Notes under the pieces: model-generated
What the model was told of the DNA's origin: nothing
What the model saw: only the letters and a program-made list of their open reading frames with translations
Database searches by the model: none
Position numbers and translations under genes: made by a program
Assembly (NCBI RefSeq): GCF_022549215.1
Contig: NZ_JAKZFC010000001.1
Coordinates: forward strand, 1,178,001-1,242,000
Source of the DNA: Solibacillus palustris
GTDB lineage: Bacteria; Bacillota; Bacilli; Bacillales_A; Planococcaceae
Length of the DNA: 64,000 bases
Reading direction: 5' to 3'
Shown: piece after piece, positions 4,103 through 59,673 of the stretch
How the letters are laid out: every line of letters starts with the position of its first letter
How positions within the stretch are numbered: the first letter of the stretch is position 1

Positions 4103-4672
4103 ATGCCGAATATAAAACAACAAATTTTACTAGAACAGGCGCAGCAAAGTTTTTCGGAGATGATCGAAATAATCGAAAGTGTGCCTGCACGAAAAAGGAC
4201 AATGACTGTGGAATCGGATTTTCTAGAAAAGAATTTCCGTGATGTACTCATGCATTTATATGAATGGCATGTGATGCTTGAACGGTGGTATGGTGAAGGA
4301 ATGGATGGTGATACCCCATTTATGCCGGCCCCTGGTTACAAGTGGAGAAATTTGCTGCAGCTGAATACGAAAATTATTGAAAACTATCAGGACATCACAT
4401 TAAACGCTGCGCAAAAGAAGGTAACATTAAGTCATCACCGAGTATTGAAATTAATCGAAGCACATACCGACGAAGAAATTTTTACGAAAAACTATTATAA
4501 ATGGACGAAGACAAGTAATTTGTATAGCTATTTTGCAGCGAATACAGTCAATCATTACGAATGGGCAAAGAAGCGTTGTACGTTGATTAAGCAGAGAGTA
4601 ATGATTCCTGAAAAACAATCCCATTGTGATAATGCTGAAGTTACGGAGGGAACGGAAGAGTATATCATATAG
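4103..4672 (+). CDS. ClbS/DfsB family four-helix bundle protein
   Basis: I place the start at the ATG preceded by a GGGGA site; a longer reading from 4040 is open but has no ribosome site. The 189-residue product resembles the ClbS/DfsB family (formerly DUF1706), DinB-like helical bundles. Recognisable blocks are RDVLMHLYEWHVMLERWY, PAPGYKWRNLLQLN and the closing NTVNHYEWAKKR. ClbS itself is a cyclopropane hydrolase giving self-protection from colibactin, but most members have no known substrate, and no colibactin-like genes are nearby. The His residues (HLYEWH, NHYEW) fit the family's conserved positions. Confidence 0.75.
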   Translation: MPNIKQQILLEQAQQSFSEMIEIIESVPARKRTMTVESDFLEKNFRDVLMHLYEWHVMLERWYGEGMDGDTPFMPAPGYKWRNLLQLNTKIIENYQDITLNAAQKKVTLSHHRVLKLIEAHTDEEIFTKNYYKWTKTSNLYSYFAANTVNHYEWAKKRCTLIKQRVMIPEKQSHCDNAEVTEGTEEYII

Positions 4673-5122
4673 TTTAATTCAAAATACTAGTGAACAGTAT
4701 AAATTGGAAGTATTGGATGATTATGATAATTCTGGAGAAAACAAATTAAAGTAGAAATAAAACTGGTACTCAACCATAGCGCAAACTAGTCAGCTATTTT
4801 TAATAGCTGGCTATTTGTTGTGAATGTTGAAAAGATACGTTTTTTTATTATCTACTTTTACAATAAATAGATTCATTACCTAATTTTTTAATAGTAAAGT
4901 TTTCTGCACAAGTCTTTATTATAAGTTAATATTTAAGTTTTTTTGTAGAAAAAAGTCCTATCATCGACAAAGAATGTTGGTTCATTTATAATGTTTTATG
5001 GTTGTGTTTGGTGTTTTTTGCTGTTTATTGGAATTGTAAATACTACTTTTTTCTTTGTTTAAGAAATGAAAAATTTACATATCATTATTTCACAATTTAA
5101 TAATACTAAAAGGAGAGTCAAT
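4673..5122. other. Intergenic stretch with one hairpin and an AT-rich leader
   Basis: No gene is visible. A perfect-arm hairpin at 4787-4813 (TAG-t-CAGCTATT, loop ttt, AATAGCTG-g-CTA), followed by a weak T stretch, is a candidate terminator. At 4687-4706 lies a 20-bp string that recurs with one mismatch at 7424-7443. The last 250 bases are very AT-rich and probably hold the promoter of the STAS-like/MCP pair. Confidence 0.5.
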
Positions 5123-5479
5123 ATGATTGTTGTTGATAAAAAAAGCTTCAAGATGGCCATTGATGAAACGAAGCACATACTAAGTGTGCAAGTGCTTGGC
5201 CTTTTGAGAGAGGCAGATACAGAGGAATATTTGCAAGATTTACAGGAGACGATTAATAAAGTGAGTCGTTCAAATTATACGTTTATGGTGGATGCTACTT
5301 ATCAGACACCATTGCCATCGAAGGTTGCAGCAGGATTAGATAATATTATGTTATTTTATTCTTCATTTGGTTTTAAAGATATTATTATTGTGAAGCCAAA
5401 ATCGAAAATTGCGCAAGTTCAAATTCGAAATGCGCTAGAGCGAATTGAGTTTAATGGTACGTTTATTGATAGTAAGTAA
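5123..5479 (+). CDS. Small STAS/SpoIIAA-like protein
   Basis: Start chosen at the ATG behind AAAGGAGAG, giving 118 residues. Alternating hydrophobic strands and helices (IDETKHILSVQVLG, YTFMVDATYQT, FKDIIIVKPKS) look like a small alpha/beta STAS or SpoIIAA-like fold. There is no signal peptide or membrane segment. It lies 68 bases upstream of a methyl-accepting chemotaxis protein with its own ribosome site, so the two are probably co-transcribed. It may be a cytosolic partner of that receptor; that role is inference. I do not recognise a named family. Confidence 0.6.
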   Translation: MIVVDKKSFKMAIDETKHILSVQVLGLLREADTEEYLQDLQETINKVSRSNYTFMVDATYQTPLPSKVAAGLDNIMLFYSSFGFKDIIIVKPKSKIAQVQIRNALERIEFNGTFIDSK

Positions 5480-5547
5480 TTCACTCTTCGATAGACCTAG
5501 CAAACAAGAACTTTGATTATTATCGGTGAAAAAAAGGAGTAGCAATA

Positions 5548-6693
5548 ATGGAAATTATATTGTTGGGTATCATATTCATTTTATTAGGCATAACTATTTA
5601 TTTTGCCTATCGTTTTGTAACACTAAAAAAACAGGTAGCTATCTATAAGCAAATGATGGTGAATATAAATGGCGATCAGGCAGAAATAGTATTGGATGAC
5701 CTATATGAAAGTGGTCAAAGAAATCAATTTGTATCGAATTTAATTCGTTTGCGTGACGGACTTGCATTATTTGCTACTAATGTCCAAGACAAAAGTAATA
5801 CTTTAACAGAGCATGGTGAATATGCGGCTGAAAAGGCGGATATTGTGCGCGCTGCAATTGATGAGGTAGGGCGCGGACTTGATAAGCAATTAACTGCAAC
5901 AGAAGAAAGCTCGGTAGCGATGGAGGATATTTCTCAAGCAATTGAAGAATTATCAGTACGTTCACATGATATTTCAGAGAAATCGAATATGACATTAGAA
6001 TTAACAGAGGCTGGAAATGATAAATTGCAAATGTCATTAACGAAGATGACACAGTTTAATGACACGATACATACAACTTTTGATGCGATTCATCATCTTG
6101 GTAAGAAGTCGCATGAAATTGGCAATATCGTAAAAGTAATTACAGGTATTTCAGATCAAATCAATTTATTAGCCTTGAACGCAGCTATTGAAGCGGCCCG
6201 TGCAGGTGAACATGGAAAAGGCTTTGCGGTAGTAGCGGATGAGGTACGTAAACTAGCAGAGCAATCTCGCCAATCTTCTTCAGAAGTTTCAAATATTGTG
6301 AAAAATATTCAAATGGAAACAGATAAAGTTGTTATTTCAATGAAGCAAGGTACAGAAGAATTTGCTGATGCTAATACAACAATTGGAGAAGTTGGCTCGA
6401 TGTTTGCGCAAATTTTAGAAACTACAAAAATTATTGCGGAAAATAATGCAAGCTCTTCTGCAAGCACTGAGGAATTATCTTCTAGCTCGATTCAAATTAT
6501 GACATCGATAAAAGAAATTGCGGAAATTTCAAAGGAATCGGTCGAAATGTTTGAGGAACTTATGGAAATTAGTGATGACGAGCTAAATACGATGACCAAG
6601 CTATTAACGGAAGTGGGAGCATTAGTCGAAATTAAAAAACAAACAGATCAGTTATTGCAATCGTTTAAGATTGATTCACAGCAGTCGGCATAA
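5548..6693 (+). CDS. Methyl-accepting chemotaxis protein, single N-terminal TM
   Basis: The 381-residue protein opens with one hydrophobic helix (about residues 3-24) and has no extracellular sensor and no obvious HAMP domain. A long coiled-coil signalling region follows. The highly conserved tip is present: [21 protein letters not shown], then [16 protein letters not shown], which bind CheA/CheW. It ends without the CheR-docking pentapeptide. Such short receptors usually sense an intracellular or membrane state, or depend on a partner. The STAS-like gene immediately upstream is the obvious candidate partner. Confidence 0.9.
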
Positions 6694-6787
6694 TTATTTG
6701 GGTAGGGCACATATCGCCTTTTCTCTTTTATTTGACGAAAGTATGGAAGGTCCGTTAAGTTTATAGGTAAAGATGGAGGTTTTATAG

Positions 6788-8710: not shown

Positions 8711-8917
8711 AAAGGGAATGTCCGAGAAGTGATTCTGGGACATTCCCTTTGCGCGGAGGATGAGGGCCAGCACGATGTTGGTCATGAATGCGTTGTCACA
8801 TGATATGACGTTTTTTGCATTCGTTCTTATTCTGACCACCAATAAAAGCAGCCTACAGCGGATTGATAATAAATGAGACGGACGCTGCCCAAAAAGTAAA
8901 TACTTTTTGGACAAGCG
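8711..8917. repeat. Structured convergent-gene repeat, family A, copy 1 (divergent)
   Basis: An approximately 207-bp element filling the gap between two convergent genes. Its left hairpin pairs GGGAATGTCC with GGACATTCCC, and its right hairpin pairs CCAAAAAG with CTTTTTGG. The core holds GGCCAGCACGATG, GTCACA and GCATTCGTTCTT. The same order of blocks recurs at 59463-59673 and inverted at 55619-55833. This copy differs most, but its end stems keep pairing despite base changes. Confidence 0.85.
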
Positions 8918-19698: not shown

Positions 19699-19840
19699 TT
19701 TCACTTTATCCCGCATAAAGGGACAGTAAGATGCCCACTTTAAGTTGGCAATCCACTGTCCCTAAAAGCCCGATTGGTGAAGACTAATGCTCGTTGGGAG
19801 ATGAGGAAAATCCCCACCGAGCAAAGTTTCACTTTATCCC
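19699..19840. repeat. Two-hairpin element bounded by 14-bp direct repeats
   Basis: TTTCACTTTATCCC occurs at 19699-19712 and again at 19827-19840. Between them lies a nested hairpin (GGGACAGT 19720-19727 with ACTGTCCC 19755-19762, enclosing TGCCcACTT with AGTTgGCA) and a second hairpin (GCTCGTTGGG 19789-19798 with CCCACCGAGC). It fills most of the gap between the exonuclease and pantothenate kinase genes. No other copy was found in this window. Confidence 0.7.
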
Positions 19841-42035: not shown

Positions 42036-42094
42036 TAACTTATAACGAACATTTTTCAATACAAAATTTGGAACCAAGTGCATTTATCTAATAA

Positions 42095-42245
42095 AATCCG
42101 TTCTGCTACGCTACGGGGGACGCTTTCCTGAGGGCGTGGCTGCAACTAACTTGTATGTGCCTCTTACGCTGGCACATACAAGTGGATTTTCCGCACACGC
42201 TTAATCCTCTAGGAGTCACCCCCTTCACTTCGCGGCACTCTACTA
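42095..42245. repeat. GC-rich dispersed-type repeat with a central 13-bp inverted repeat
   Basis: An island of GC-rich sequence inside AT-rich spacer. It opens TCCGTTCTGCTACGC and GGACGCTTTCC, closes GGAGTCACCCCCTTCAC and TTCGCGG, and has at 42149-42183 a perfect hairpin ACTTGTATGTGCC / GGCACATACAAGT. The wording resembles intergenic repeats scattered through Bacillales genomes (family knowledge). Only one copy occurs in this window. Confidence 0.6.
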
Positions 42246-42654
42246 TAAAGTAAAAATTGGTTTAAATTACAAAGAACTTGAACAAATGTGCTAAATCTAG
42301 CTCTGTCATTGAAATAAAATAAAAATTAGTCTAAGAATGTTTTTATTTTGAAATAATAAAAGTAGCTAAATTTATCGCTGTAGCAAACCTTTAATCTAAA
42401 TTTCAATAATAAAACAGAGCAATATTTTATTCAGCACCGCCGCCTCGCGATAGCGCAAGCGGCAACATTGGACTCTTTTAGCTTTATTAAAACGTAACAT
42501 ATTAATTTGGCGGGCCTTGGATGCGGCATTAAAGACAGTAGTATGGACACGTACCACGTGGCCATAATGCTGTCATGCCGTTGCCCGACAAAAATATGTA
42601 ACACTTCACTTAATACATTTTTTGTTAGCAAATTTGCTGAATGTCAGTAATAAA
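42246..42654. other. Spacer with two unexplained hairpins
   Basis: No gene seen. 42439-42463 forms GCCGC-ctc-GCG...CGC-aa-GCGGC. At 42512-42586 a long hairpin stacks GGGC/GCCC, CGGCAT/ATGCCG, GACAG/CTGTC, TATGG/CCATA and CACGT/ACGTG around the loop ACC. The two are joined by AT-rich sequence. They sit downstream of the EamA gene read from the right, beyond its terminator. Confidence 0.6.
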
Positions 42655-42702
42655 TAAACACTGAAGAGTATGCTTCTGTAGGAGGCATACTTTTCAGTGT
42701 TG
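42655..42702 (-). terminator. Terminator of the second EamA gene (minus strand)
   Basis: On the minus strand ACACTGA and AGTATGC pair with GCATACT and TCAGTGT, followed by TTATTTATT. Confidence 0.85.
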
Positions 42703-42704
42703 GG

Positions 42705-52939: not shown

Positions 52940-53060
52940 CTTGCTTCAGCTAACTGGCTGAATCAAGTTAAGCCCCGGCGGGTGTCACAGATTTTTCAAG
53001 GGAGTTTTTCAAGCGAGCTTGAAAAAAATCTGGACGCAATTACGCCGAGGCGTAATTGAT
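52940..53060. repeat. Intergenic repeat family B, copy 1
   Basis: Begins right at the stop codon of the upstream gene with a hairpin (CTTG-c-TTCAGC / GCTGAA-t-CAAG). The shared core is CCCCGGCGGGTGTCACAG, ATTTTT, GGGAGTTTTT, GAAAAAAATCTGG. It ends with a perfect hairpin CAATTACGCC-ga-GGCGTAATTG. A second, more decayed copy is at 58411-58538. It stops just before the ribosome site of the next gene. Confidence 0.8.
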
Positions 53061-55618: not shown

Positions 55619-55833
55619 GGTGCTGTCTAAAAAGTCAAAACTTTTTAGACAGATGCCTCCTCATGTATTAATTATCCGCTTGAGGCGGTGCTTCTGCGGT
55701 GGTCGTAAGAAAAGAACGAATGCTAAACCCGTCACGTCCTGTGACTACACATTCATGACCAGCATCTTGCTGGCCTCCATCCTCGGCGCAAAGGGTCTAC
55801 CCCAGAATTACTTCTCGGGCAGACCCTTTTTTA
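55619..55833. repeat. Structured convergent-gene repeat, family A, copy 2 (inverted)
   Basis: Occupies the entire space between the convergent Na/Pi gene (stop 55613) and the small membrane gene (stop 55834). In this orientation it starts CTGTCTAAAAAG / CTTTTTAGACAG and ends with the GGGTCT / AGACCC hairpin plus T6. It is nearly identical, reverse-complemented, to 59463-59673. Confidence 0.92.
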
Positions 55834-59462: not shown

Positions 59463-59673
59463 AAAGGGTCTGCCCAAGAAGTAATTCTGAGGTAGACCCT
59501 TTGCGCCGAGGATGGTGGCCAGCACGATGCTGGTCAAGAATGCATTGTCACAGGACGTAACGTTTTTATTAGCATTCGTTCTTTTCTTACGACCACCGCA
59601 GAAGCACCGCCTCAAGCGGATAATTAATACATGAGGAGGCATCTGTCTAAAAAGTTTTGACTTTTTAGACAGC
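59463..59673. repeat. Structured convergent-gene repeat, family A, copy 3
   Basis: Lies between the Ala/Glu-tail gene and the convergent MATE gene. Left hairpin GGGTCT / AGACCC; core GGCCAGCACGATGCTGGTC, GTCACAGGACGT, GCATTCGTTCTTTTCTTACG, GACCACCGCAGAAGCACCG; right hairpin CTGTCTAAAAAG / CTTTTTAGACAG. Differs from copy 2 at only scattered positions. Confidence 0.92.

Follow-up and report, generated by a model that had tools for sequence, protein, structure and literature searches.

Bacillaceae-1 RNA (RF01690) as a putative mobile module nested within terminator-like repeats of Solibacillus palustris

BOX and bcr1 are short structured intergenic repeats that occur in many copies, BOX being modular as well, and the Rickettsia palindromic elements (RPEs) are short, palindromic, non-autonomous repeats, dispersed over the chromosome, that enter genes and are best known from protein genes. 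As far as these descriptions go, the elements reported here share with BOX and bcr1 a short structured form and multiple intergenic copies, with a modularity like that of BOX, and they share with RPEs the properties of being short, palindromic, non-autonomous, dispersed and gene-entering. By the same descriptions they differ from BOX and bcr1 in that their optional module is a separate RNA family, Rfam RF01690, present in 67 of 299 genomes of the class Bacilli and in 32 of 119 sampled genera, and from RPEs in that RF01690 lies at hairpins, in RNA genes and inside itself. The encyclopaedia entry for the RF01690 motif is said to note adjacency to rRNA operons, so the link of this family to rRNA may not, as such, be new.

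Bacillaceae-1 is listed as a candidate structured RNA in the accessible text of Weinberg (2010; PMC2864571), and the accessible parts of other papers report eight instances newly annotated in B. subtilis under RF01690 (PMC8208703), RF01690 among abundant sRNAs (PMC9029176), and a 74-nt family in B. halodurans (PMC2267715), the last of these naming BOX and bcr1 as intergenic repeats and setting aside the rRNA-precursor clusters of B. subtilis and B. halodurans; that family and these clusters are at most candidates for RF01690. By covariance-model score the cores described below are members of the family of PMC2864571, with the same three stems, and the family as seen here differs from the accessible part of that listing in that it is inserted, as an optional module, into larger repeats that also occur empty, into RNA genes and concentrically into itself. 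No report of mobility was found in the accessible literature on Bacillaceae-1 and RF01690. A further likeness is with the expansion segments of 5S rRNA, which the accessible text of PMC7812874 describes as helical inserts in 5S genes, sometimes beside normal copies, as in one genome considered below (G036). The taxa given there are Clostridiales, Halanaerobiales, Thermoanaerobacterales, Alteromonadales and Halobacterales, whereas the insert in G036 is RF01690, in a genome of the same class as S. palustris and in a gene that is possibly a pseudogene.

The window analysed here is a stretch of 64,000 nucleotides of S. palustris (NCBI RefSeq GCF_022549215.1, contig NZ_JAKZFC010000001.1, positions 1,178,001 to 1,242,000). 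The initial annotation had placed in it three copies of a structured element of about 210 bp, here called A, and their positions were confirmed (Table 1). Each copy had been described as filling a tail-to-tail gap. All three do lie between convergent genes, and copies 1 and 2 abut both stop codons, which are 12 and 4 nt from the edges of copy 1 and 8 and 4 nt from those of copy 2, but copy 3 stands apart from its neighbours, with stops at 173 and 64 nt. A blastn search of the same genome with copy 1 listed 54 stretches, some of them self-complementary fragments of one element; after these were collapsed, the genome holds at least about 40 A elements, as counted from the best 40 of 118 candidates.

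Table 1. Coordinates of the repeats, modules and hairpins in the window.
Feature	Position	Strand	Remarks
A element copy 1, core-bearing	8711..8917	-	204 nt matched at 94.6% in conspecific G041
5' hairpin of copy 1 (RNA strand)	~8884-8916
3' hairpin of copy 1 (RNA strand)	~8712-8749
RF01690 module (core) in copy 1	8767..8833	-	53.0 bits by cmscan (cut-off 35 bits)
A element copy 2, core-bearing	55619..55833	+	a convergent stop codon on either side
RF01690 module in copy 2	55707..55773	+	cmscan 65.1 bits
A element copy 3, core-bearing	59463..59673	-	plain hairpin here in G041
RF01690 module in copy 3	59519..59588	-	cmscan 57.3 bits
B element without core (empty host)	52940..53060	+	directly after TAA stop of upstream ORF
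C element without core (empty host)	42038..42247	-	ends approximate
Plain terminator-like hairpin	42657..42703	+	G041 has arms similar to the outer ones here, with an A element between them

The conserved core of A is RF01690, matched over model positions 1-67 in all three copies with scores above the cut-off of 35 bits (Table 1), as a module of about 70 nt. It lies on the minus strand in copies 1 and 3, opposite to the strand on which these were read, and on the plus strand in copy 2. The genome contains 101 RF01690 matches at E<=0.001, 100 of them above the cut-off, which exceeds the number of A elements, and a script sorted them by surroundings into 34 A-type, 48 B-type and 18 others, one match being left out of the typing because it had no neighbour in its locus. 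Across species of the genus of S. palustris, copy number ranged from 3 to at least 94 when taken from the best 94 candidates per genome, the count for S. palustris itself being 101.

Without the core, host A is about 155 nt long. On the RNA strand it starts with a 5' hairpin (GCTGTCCAAAAAG..CTTTTTGGACAGC) and a linker ending in GCTTCTGCGGTGGTC, which leads into the core; 3' of the core follow CCATCCTCGGCGC and a 3' hairpin (AAAGGGAATGTCC..GGACATTCCCTTT), and the terminal inverted repeats amount to short AAAAAGGG/CCCTTTTT tips. The proposal that the end stems covary was borne out by 30 full-length copies, in which both sides had changed in 7 of 12 pairs of the 5' stem and 7 of 11 pairs of the 3' stem; in the core stems of the same copies, such changes affected none of the 11 pairs of P1 and P2 together and 2 of the 5 pairs of P3. 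Over the whole structure there were 80 doubly changed cells in these copies, compared with 23.8 after shuffling and 8-24 in slid controls, and in the named stems 91.3% of cells were paired and 16 pairs had both sides changed (shuffles 8.6, slid 6-11), the structure having been drawn from one of the 30 scored copies, which gives it an advantage over its slid versions. RNAalifold, applied to the whole alignment of A, recovered both end hairpins and P2, and not P1 or P3. It also proposed a long-range stem (columns 43-47 with 145-149), which was doubtful and left unused.

Comparison of filled and empty sites between strains, a check put forward with the initial annotation, showed a difference at two of the three copies: in the conspecific genome G041, a plain hairpin stands at the place of copy 3, and copy 2 is the same A without a core, GGTGGTCAGAATAAATTCTCACCATCC standing where the window has GGTGGTCGTAAGAAAAGAAC..core..GGCCTCCATCC. 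At copy 2 the flanking bases are also different, so that a gene conversion involving some other A element could account for the change. Core-less A is present in G000, G041, G013 and G011. At its centre is a hairpin that differs on both arms by subfamily (AGAAT/ATTCT, GAAAT/ATTTC, GGAAT/ATTCC), and in core-bearing A the left arm of this hairpin is kept and the core replaces ATTCTCA.

The same module occupies other hosts in this genome. Elements of a second kind, B, are about 120-250 nt long and begin at or near stop codons. They start with TTAAC, and in 11 of the 27 starts examined, among which one place figures twice, its TAA is the stop of an ORF that is 45 codons or longer, compared with 10 of the 183 TTAAC in the window. 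In filled B the core replaces either CAAGTT in the 3' arm of a 15-bp hairpin (site 1) or TCAAGC in one arm of a second hairpin (site 2), and in elements filled at both sites the cores are about 107-109 nt apart. Among the best 40 of 112 candidate B tails in the genome, 15 had the core directly upstream, at site 1, and 25 lacked it, the tail query being biased to copies that are empty at site 2. All 20 B places selected as having no listed core at the tail proved core-less on reading, and at one locus (L144) a core-less B lies next to a filled one. Four filled copies of a third host, C, were found (L057, L058, L062, L069) along with the empty one in the window, and its target has no obvious hairpin. 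The B element of the window is wholly missing from G041, where the flanks join exactly after TTAA with no target duplication, at the single empty/filled B site clean enough for this test. By eye, G041 also carries at C1 ~1434970-1435159 a B with its left part missing and a core-like stretch at site 2, without a window counterpart, a second within-species difference in the presence of B.

The view of the 210 bp as a single unit is not supported, because the core is gained or lost independently of host A and is also found in unrelated hosts. As judged from its sequence, A is a composite of a host and an optional inner module, belonging to a dispersed family that extends beyond the three window copies.

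The places of A were also compared between genomes, and at three of them (copy 2, copy 3 and an A element of G041 at ~1452483) a plain terminator-like hairpin stands in a relative instead. At the place of copy 2, the upstream gene is shared, and in G013, G011, G006 and G004 it is followed by a plain hairpin bordered by runs of A and T, as seen by folding in G013 and by eye in the other three; G010 has a hairpin resembling A's own 3' hairpin, and G009 and G002 have a different, longer sequence. The plain hairpin of G041 at the place of copy 3 is AAACCAACAATGT..ACATTGTTGGTTT, with identical short flanks. The A element of G041 at ~1452483 is missing from the window, which has there the hairpin AACACTGAA..TTTTCAGTGTT (42657); the A element of G041 lies between the arms AACACAGAA..TTTTCTGTGTT, and the window hairpin is preceded by other sequence as well, including the C element. 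At copy 1 both genomes carry A. Two other differences were seen between the window and G041. A structured insert of 117 nt (19710-19826), beside TTTTCACTTTAT direct repeats, is missing from G041 and resembles by eye the host of RF01690 at L281/L282 in other genera, and about 2.1 kb (4635-6721), encoding among other things what looks by eye like a methyl-accepting chemotaxis protein, is represented in G041 by 146 nt.

Enrichment of A between convergent genes persisted when checked genome-wide: the 29 full-length core-bearing copies with two called neighbours were 17 convergent, 12 co-directional and 0 divergent, and the 15 distinct core-less A of the genome were 7, 8 and 0, neighbours being called by a simple codon-score caller. 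The 65 gene pairs of the window, with the sites of the three copies included, were 10 convergent, 45 co-directional and 10 divergent. The 24 of 44 A elements that are convergent, core-bearing and core-less together, exceed this background (Fisher p = 1.9e-5 against all window pairs; p = 0.0067 against the 24 window gaps of at least 150 bp only). Each of the 29 copies for which neighbours were called has at least one gene running into it, and of the 46 stop codons that face these copies, 36 are no more than 16 nt from the edge of A. The outward T fraction is 0.70 past the 3' hairpin and 0.49 past the 5' hairpin, on the other strand, compared with 0.30 in the window; the 5' hairpin is A+T-rich towards its tip. 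No bias towards a replication strand was seen in G041, with 12 plus and 12 minus among the matches listed, fragments included and counted by eye, in what was presumed to be the first half of the chromosome.

Host A thus has what is expected of an intrinsic terminator, a covarying stem with an outward T-tract and a position downstream of genes. With intrinsic bidirectional terminators it shares the stem and outward T-tract beside stop codons, and plain hairpins at the same places in relatives; it differs from them in being a dispersed element with two separate hairpins and an optional insert. The T-tracts, the adjacency to stop codons and the plain terminator-like hairpins of relatives suggest that both terminal hairpins probably end transcription, one from each side. 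Of the three alternatives first offered for the whole element, a terminator therefore fits host A and a structured RNA fits the core. A MITE-like nature agrees with the dispersal and with presence or absence at orthologous sites (A copy 3, A of G041 at ~1452483, and B at 52940-53060), but not with the search for target-site duplication, which found none at the single clean B site, the A sites showing a plain hairpin in the relative instead.

RF01690 also occurs in other Bacilli, where it abuts the 5' edge of genes for 16S, 5S and tRNA and is found within 5S and tRNA-like genes and within itself. Eight rrn leaders were read in G037, where the core stands directly before 16S in three and a plain hairpin stands there in five; core-type and plain-hairpin 16S leaders occur together in G062 as well, and in G059 eight places match over the core, one of which was read. 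In G051 and G055 the core occupies the same place before 16S in antisense. A pattern scan of named genomes for a core beside the 16S start returned nine loci, all in Bacilli (Peribacillus, Siminovitchia, Lederbergia, Salsuginibacillus and one Bacillus sp.), with RF01690 confirmed in 9 of 9 and Rfam 16S in 8 of 9. One of ten 23S-5S spacers of G014 has an insert of about 195 nt, more than a bare module, which ends in a core two nt short of 5S; no host sequence is missing there, and the other nine 5S copies lack a core before 5S, one having a different spacer. In one 5S gene of G036 (L092) the core replaces AAGTTAAGCTCT, at a point where five listed 5S copies are clean, and this core-bearing gene may be a pseudogene. 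The same gene has a second insert of about 50 nt between CCCAT and CCCGAACACGG. Downstream of two cores in G034, the 3' half of a tRNA occurs for a second time, from which we infer that these cores lie inside tRNA-like gene copies.

Sampling of best loci (25 of L277-L302) gave further contacts with 5S (L294, L297, L300), with tRNA (L294, L298, L299 twice, L302) and with the 3' end of 23S (L301); most other loci sampled from this set had no stable RNA within reach. Of the 14 sense cores with a stable RNA downstream that had not been chosen by pattern, 12 end within 3 nt of that RNA, three of these being operons of one genome, and the two exceptions, L294 and L103, leave gaps of 42 nt and about 190 nt. 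Counting all cores no farther than 200 nt from a stable RNA, the loci examined contained 28 sense cores, including one 21 nt after a tRNA (L109) and one placed by reading (L092), and 2 antisense cores (L287, L289). Some loci have other neighbours: RF01690 lies within a match to RF01412 (BsrG, type I toxin-antitoxin) at L290 1394-1705 and near another at L091 1133-1390, and at L286 it lies, by eye, upstream of a short hydrophobic ORF.

A case of the module within itself is L293 (G171), where one whole core is accompanied by four left arms and by six right halves in series. The first three of these halves are paired, concentrically, with three of the arms (GAACTTCCGC/GCGGAAGTC, GAACTTTCG/CGAAAGTC, GAACTTCTGC/GCAGAAGTC), the fourth arm pairs with a G-U pair, the fold has a z of -4.2, and the last three right halves resemble a tandem copy of the first three. 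The locus can be read as cores inserted into the P2 arm of cores.

These observations are best joined, in our view, by a nested construction that we consider likely, in which A replaces terminator hairpins beside stop codons and RF01690 is a non-autonomous mobile module that enters hairpins. The proposal draws on features that can be read in the sequences themselves: A is composite, its end stems covary and it adjoins stop codons, while the module has both filled and empty counterparts, occupies unrelated hosts and forms concentric copies. In the outer layer, a dispersed terminator-like A would take over the places of ordinary terminator hairpins. In the inner layer, RF01690 would enter hairpins, usually replacing a short host stretch; in its own genome it would have entered A, B (at two sites), C and further repeats, and in other Bacilli genes for 16S, 5S and tRNA, at their 5' edges or internally, as well as the P2 hairpin of the module itself. 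Seven contexts have an empty counterpart of the module, and in five of these it replaces part or all of a host hairpin. Hairpins are its putative target. The host nucleotides missing at insertion number 6-12 in A, B and 5S, and in G037 a whole hairpin is exchanged. Because one arm of the host hairpin is intact and the other replaced, we infer that insertion, not loss, lies behind most of the filled/empty cases.

Candidate routes for such insertion include single-strand DNA insertion, template switching between hairpins and copying through RNA. Hairpin-directed insertion or copying would fit best, given the non-homologous hosts, the missing host nucleotides, the hairpin sites in most contexts, both orientations, the concentric copies, the lack of a linked gene and the lack of duplication. 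A DNA-level, hairpin-directed route without duplication would be favoured, since the comparisons made show no target duplication and both orientations occur before 16S. No transposase or other ORF was found linked to the module, and no comparison catches movement in progress. Nor was a vehicle between genera seen: core-less A had no match in plasmids, a 69-nt core query (blastn) had none in plasmids or phages, and two exact patterns had none in viral contigs, so a phage or plasmid vehicle was set aside on these searches, the core and pattern searches being weak tests. The broader proposal is that RF01690 is a protein-free mobile module that targets hairpins and replaces part of them, invading rRNA operons, 5S and tRNA genes and terminator repeats across Bacilli and inserting into itself to form concentric arrays, by an undescribed route. 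It is more tentative, and we would put it somewhat short of an even chance.

The strongest rival to mobility is repeated recruitment, in which selection would have brought a functional RNA module (for processing, stability or protein binding) to the ends of stable RNAs and mRNAs again and again. The conserved structure, the preponderance of sense cores near stable RNAs and the 12 of 14 sense cores whose 3' end comes within 3 nt of a downstream stable RNA are what such a role would predict, but the antisense cores at L287 and L289 occupy the same place against 16S, so position is independent of orientation. Moreover, the module is missing from other operons of the same genome, and it sits inside 5S genes, tRNA-like genes and itself, where such a role is hard to see; we regard recruitment as rather unlikely. 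The proposal, in the accessible text of PMC4333381, that the opposite strand of RF01690 is a CsrA-binding sponge RNA starts from CsrA-motif matches, and the low confidence of the discoverers in the strand is noted there. GGA is not kept in the loops, however: among the 82 of the 101 own-genome matches that had both loops recognised, 19 being unscored, the proposed strand has GGA in the second loop of 10 and in the first loop of 27. Near stable RNAs, moreover, 28 of 30 cores have the Rfam strand in the sense orientation. The sponge was accordingly rejected and seems to us scarcely credible.

Two other explanations concern the DNA elements themselves. The core-bearing form could be ancestral and the empty forms core deletions, as might be suspected from how common filled copies are among the 101 matches (34 A-type and 48 B-type) and from copy 2, which differs between two strains mainly by its core. 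Empty hosts, however, have intact hairpins, with 15-bp arms in B and the three paired variants in A, and filled copies retain one arm only, so the missing arm would have to be rebuilt in unrelated hosts; as the module also occurs in hosts with no other similarity, we consider deletion very unlikely. It is also quite unlikely, if slightly less so, that A and B derive, as ordinary non-autonomous elements, from a known type of transposon (as IS200/IS605-like PATEs or as DNA MITEs) and that RF01690 is a piece of its ends. Elements of the IS200/IS605 type have hairpins near both ends, as B does; B was inserted exactly after TTAA with no target duplication at the single clean site, and A has its short inverted tips. 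Against this, the two families searched in the own genome, Y1_Tnp (PF01797) and OrfB_IS605 (PF01385), gave 0 matches, on which an IS200/IS605 origin was rejected; the ends of A, B and C differ, and RF01690 stands beside rRNA and tRNA genes of other genera with no A or B sequence seen there.

On the favoured reading of RF01690 as a mobile module, a family known since 2010 as a candidate structured RNA appears to move, which would change the annotation of about 100 copies in a genome such as this one. The predominance of sense orientation near stable RNAs bears on the disputed strand of the family, and the filled and empty sites within one genome or species are a place to seek the enzyme, or the replication accident, responsible. 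The comparisons also show repeats in exchange for terminators, and hairpins traded among rRNA leaders.
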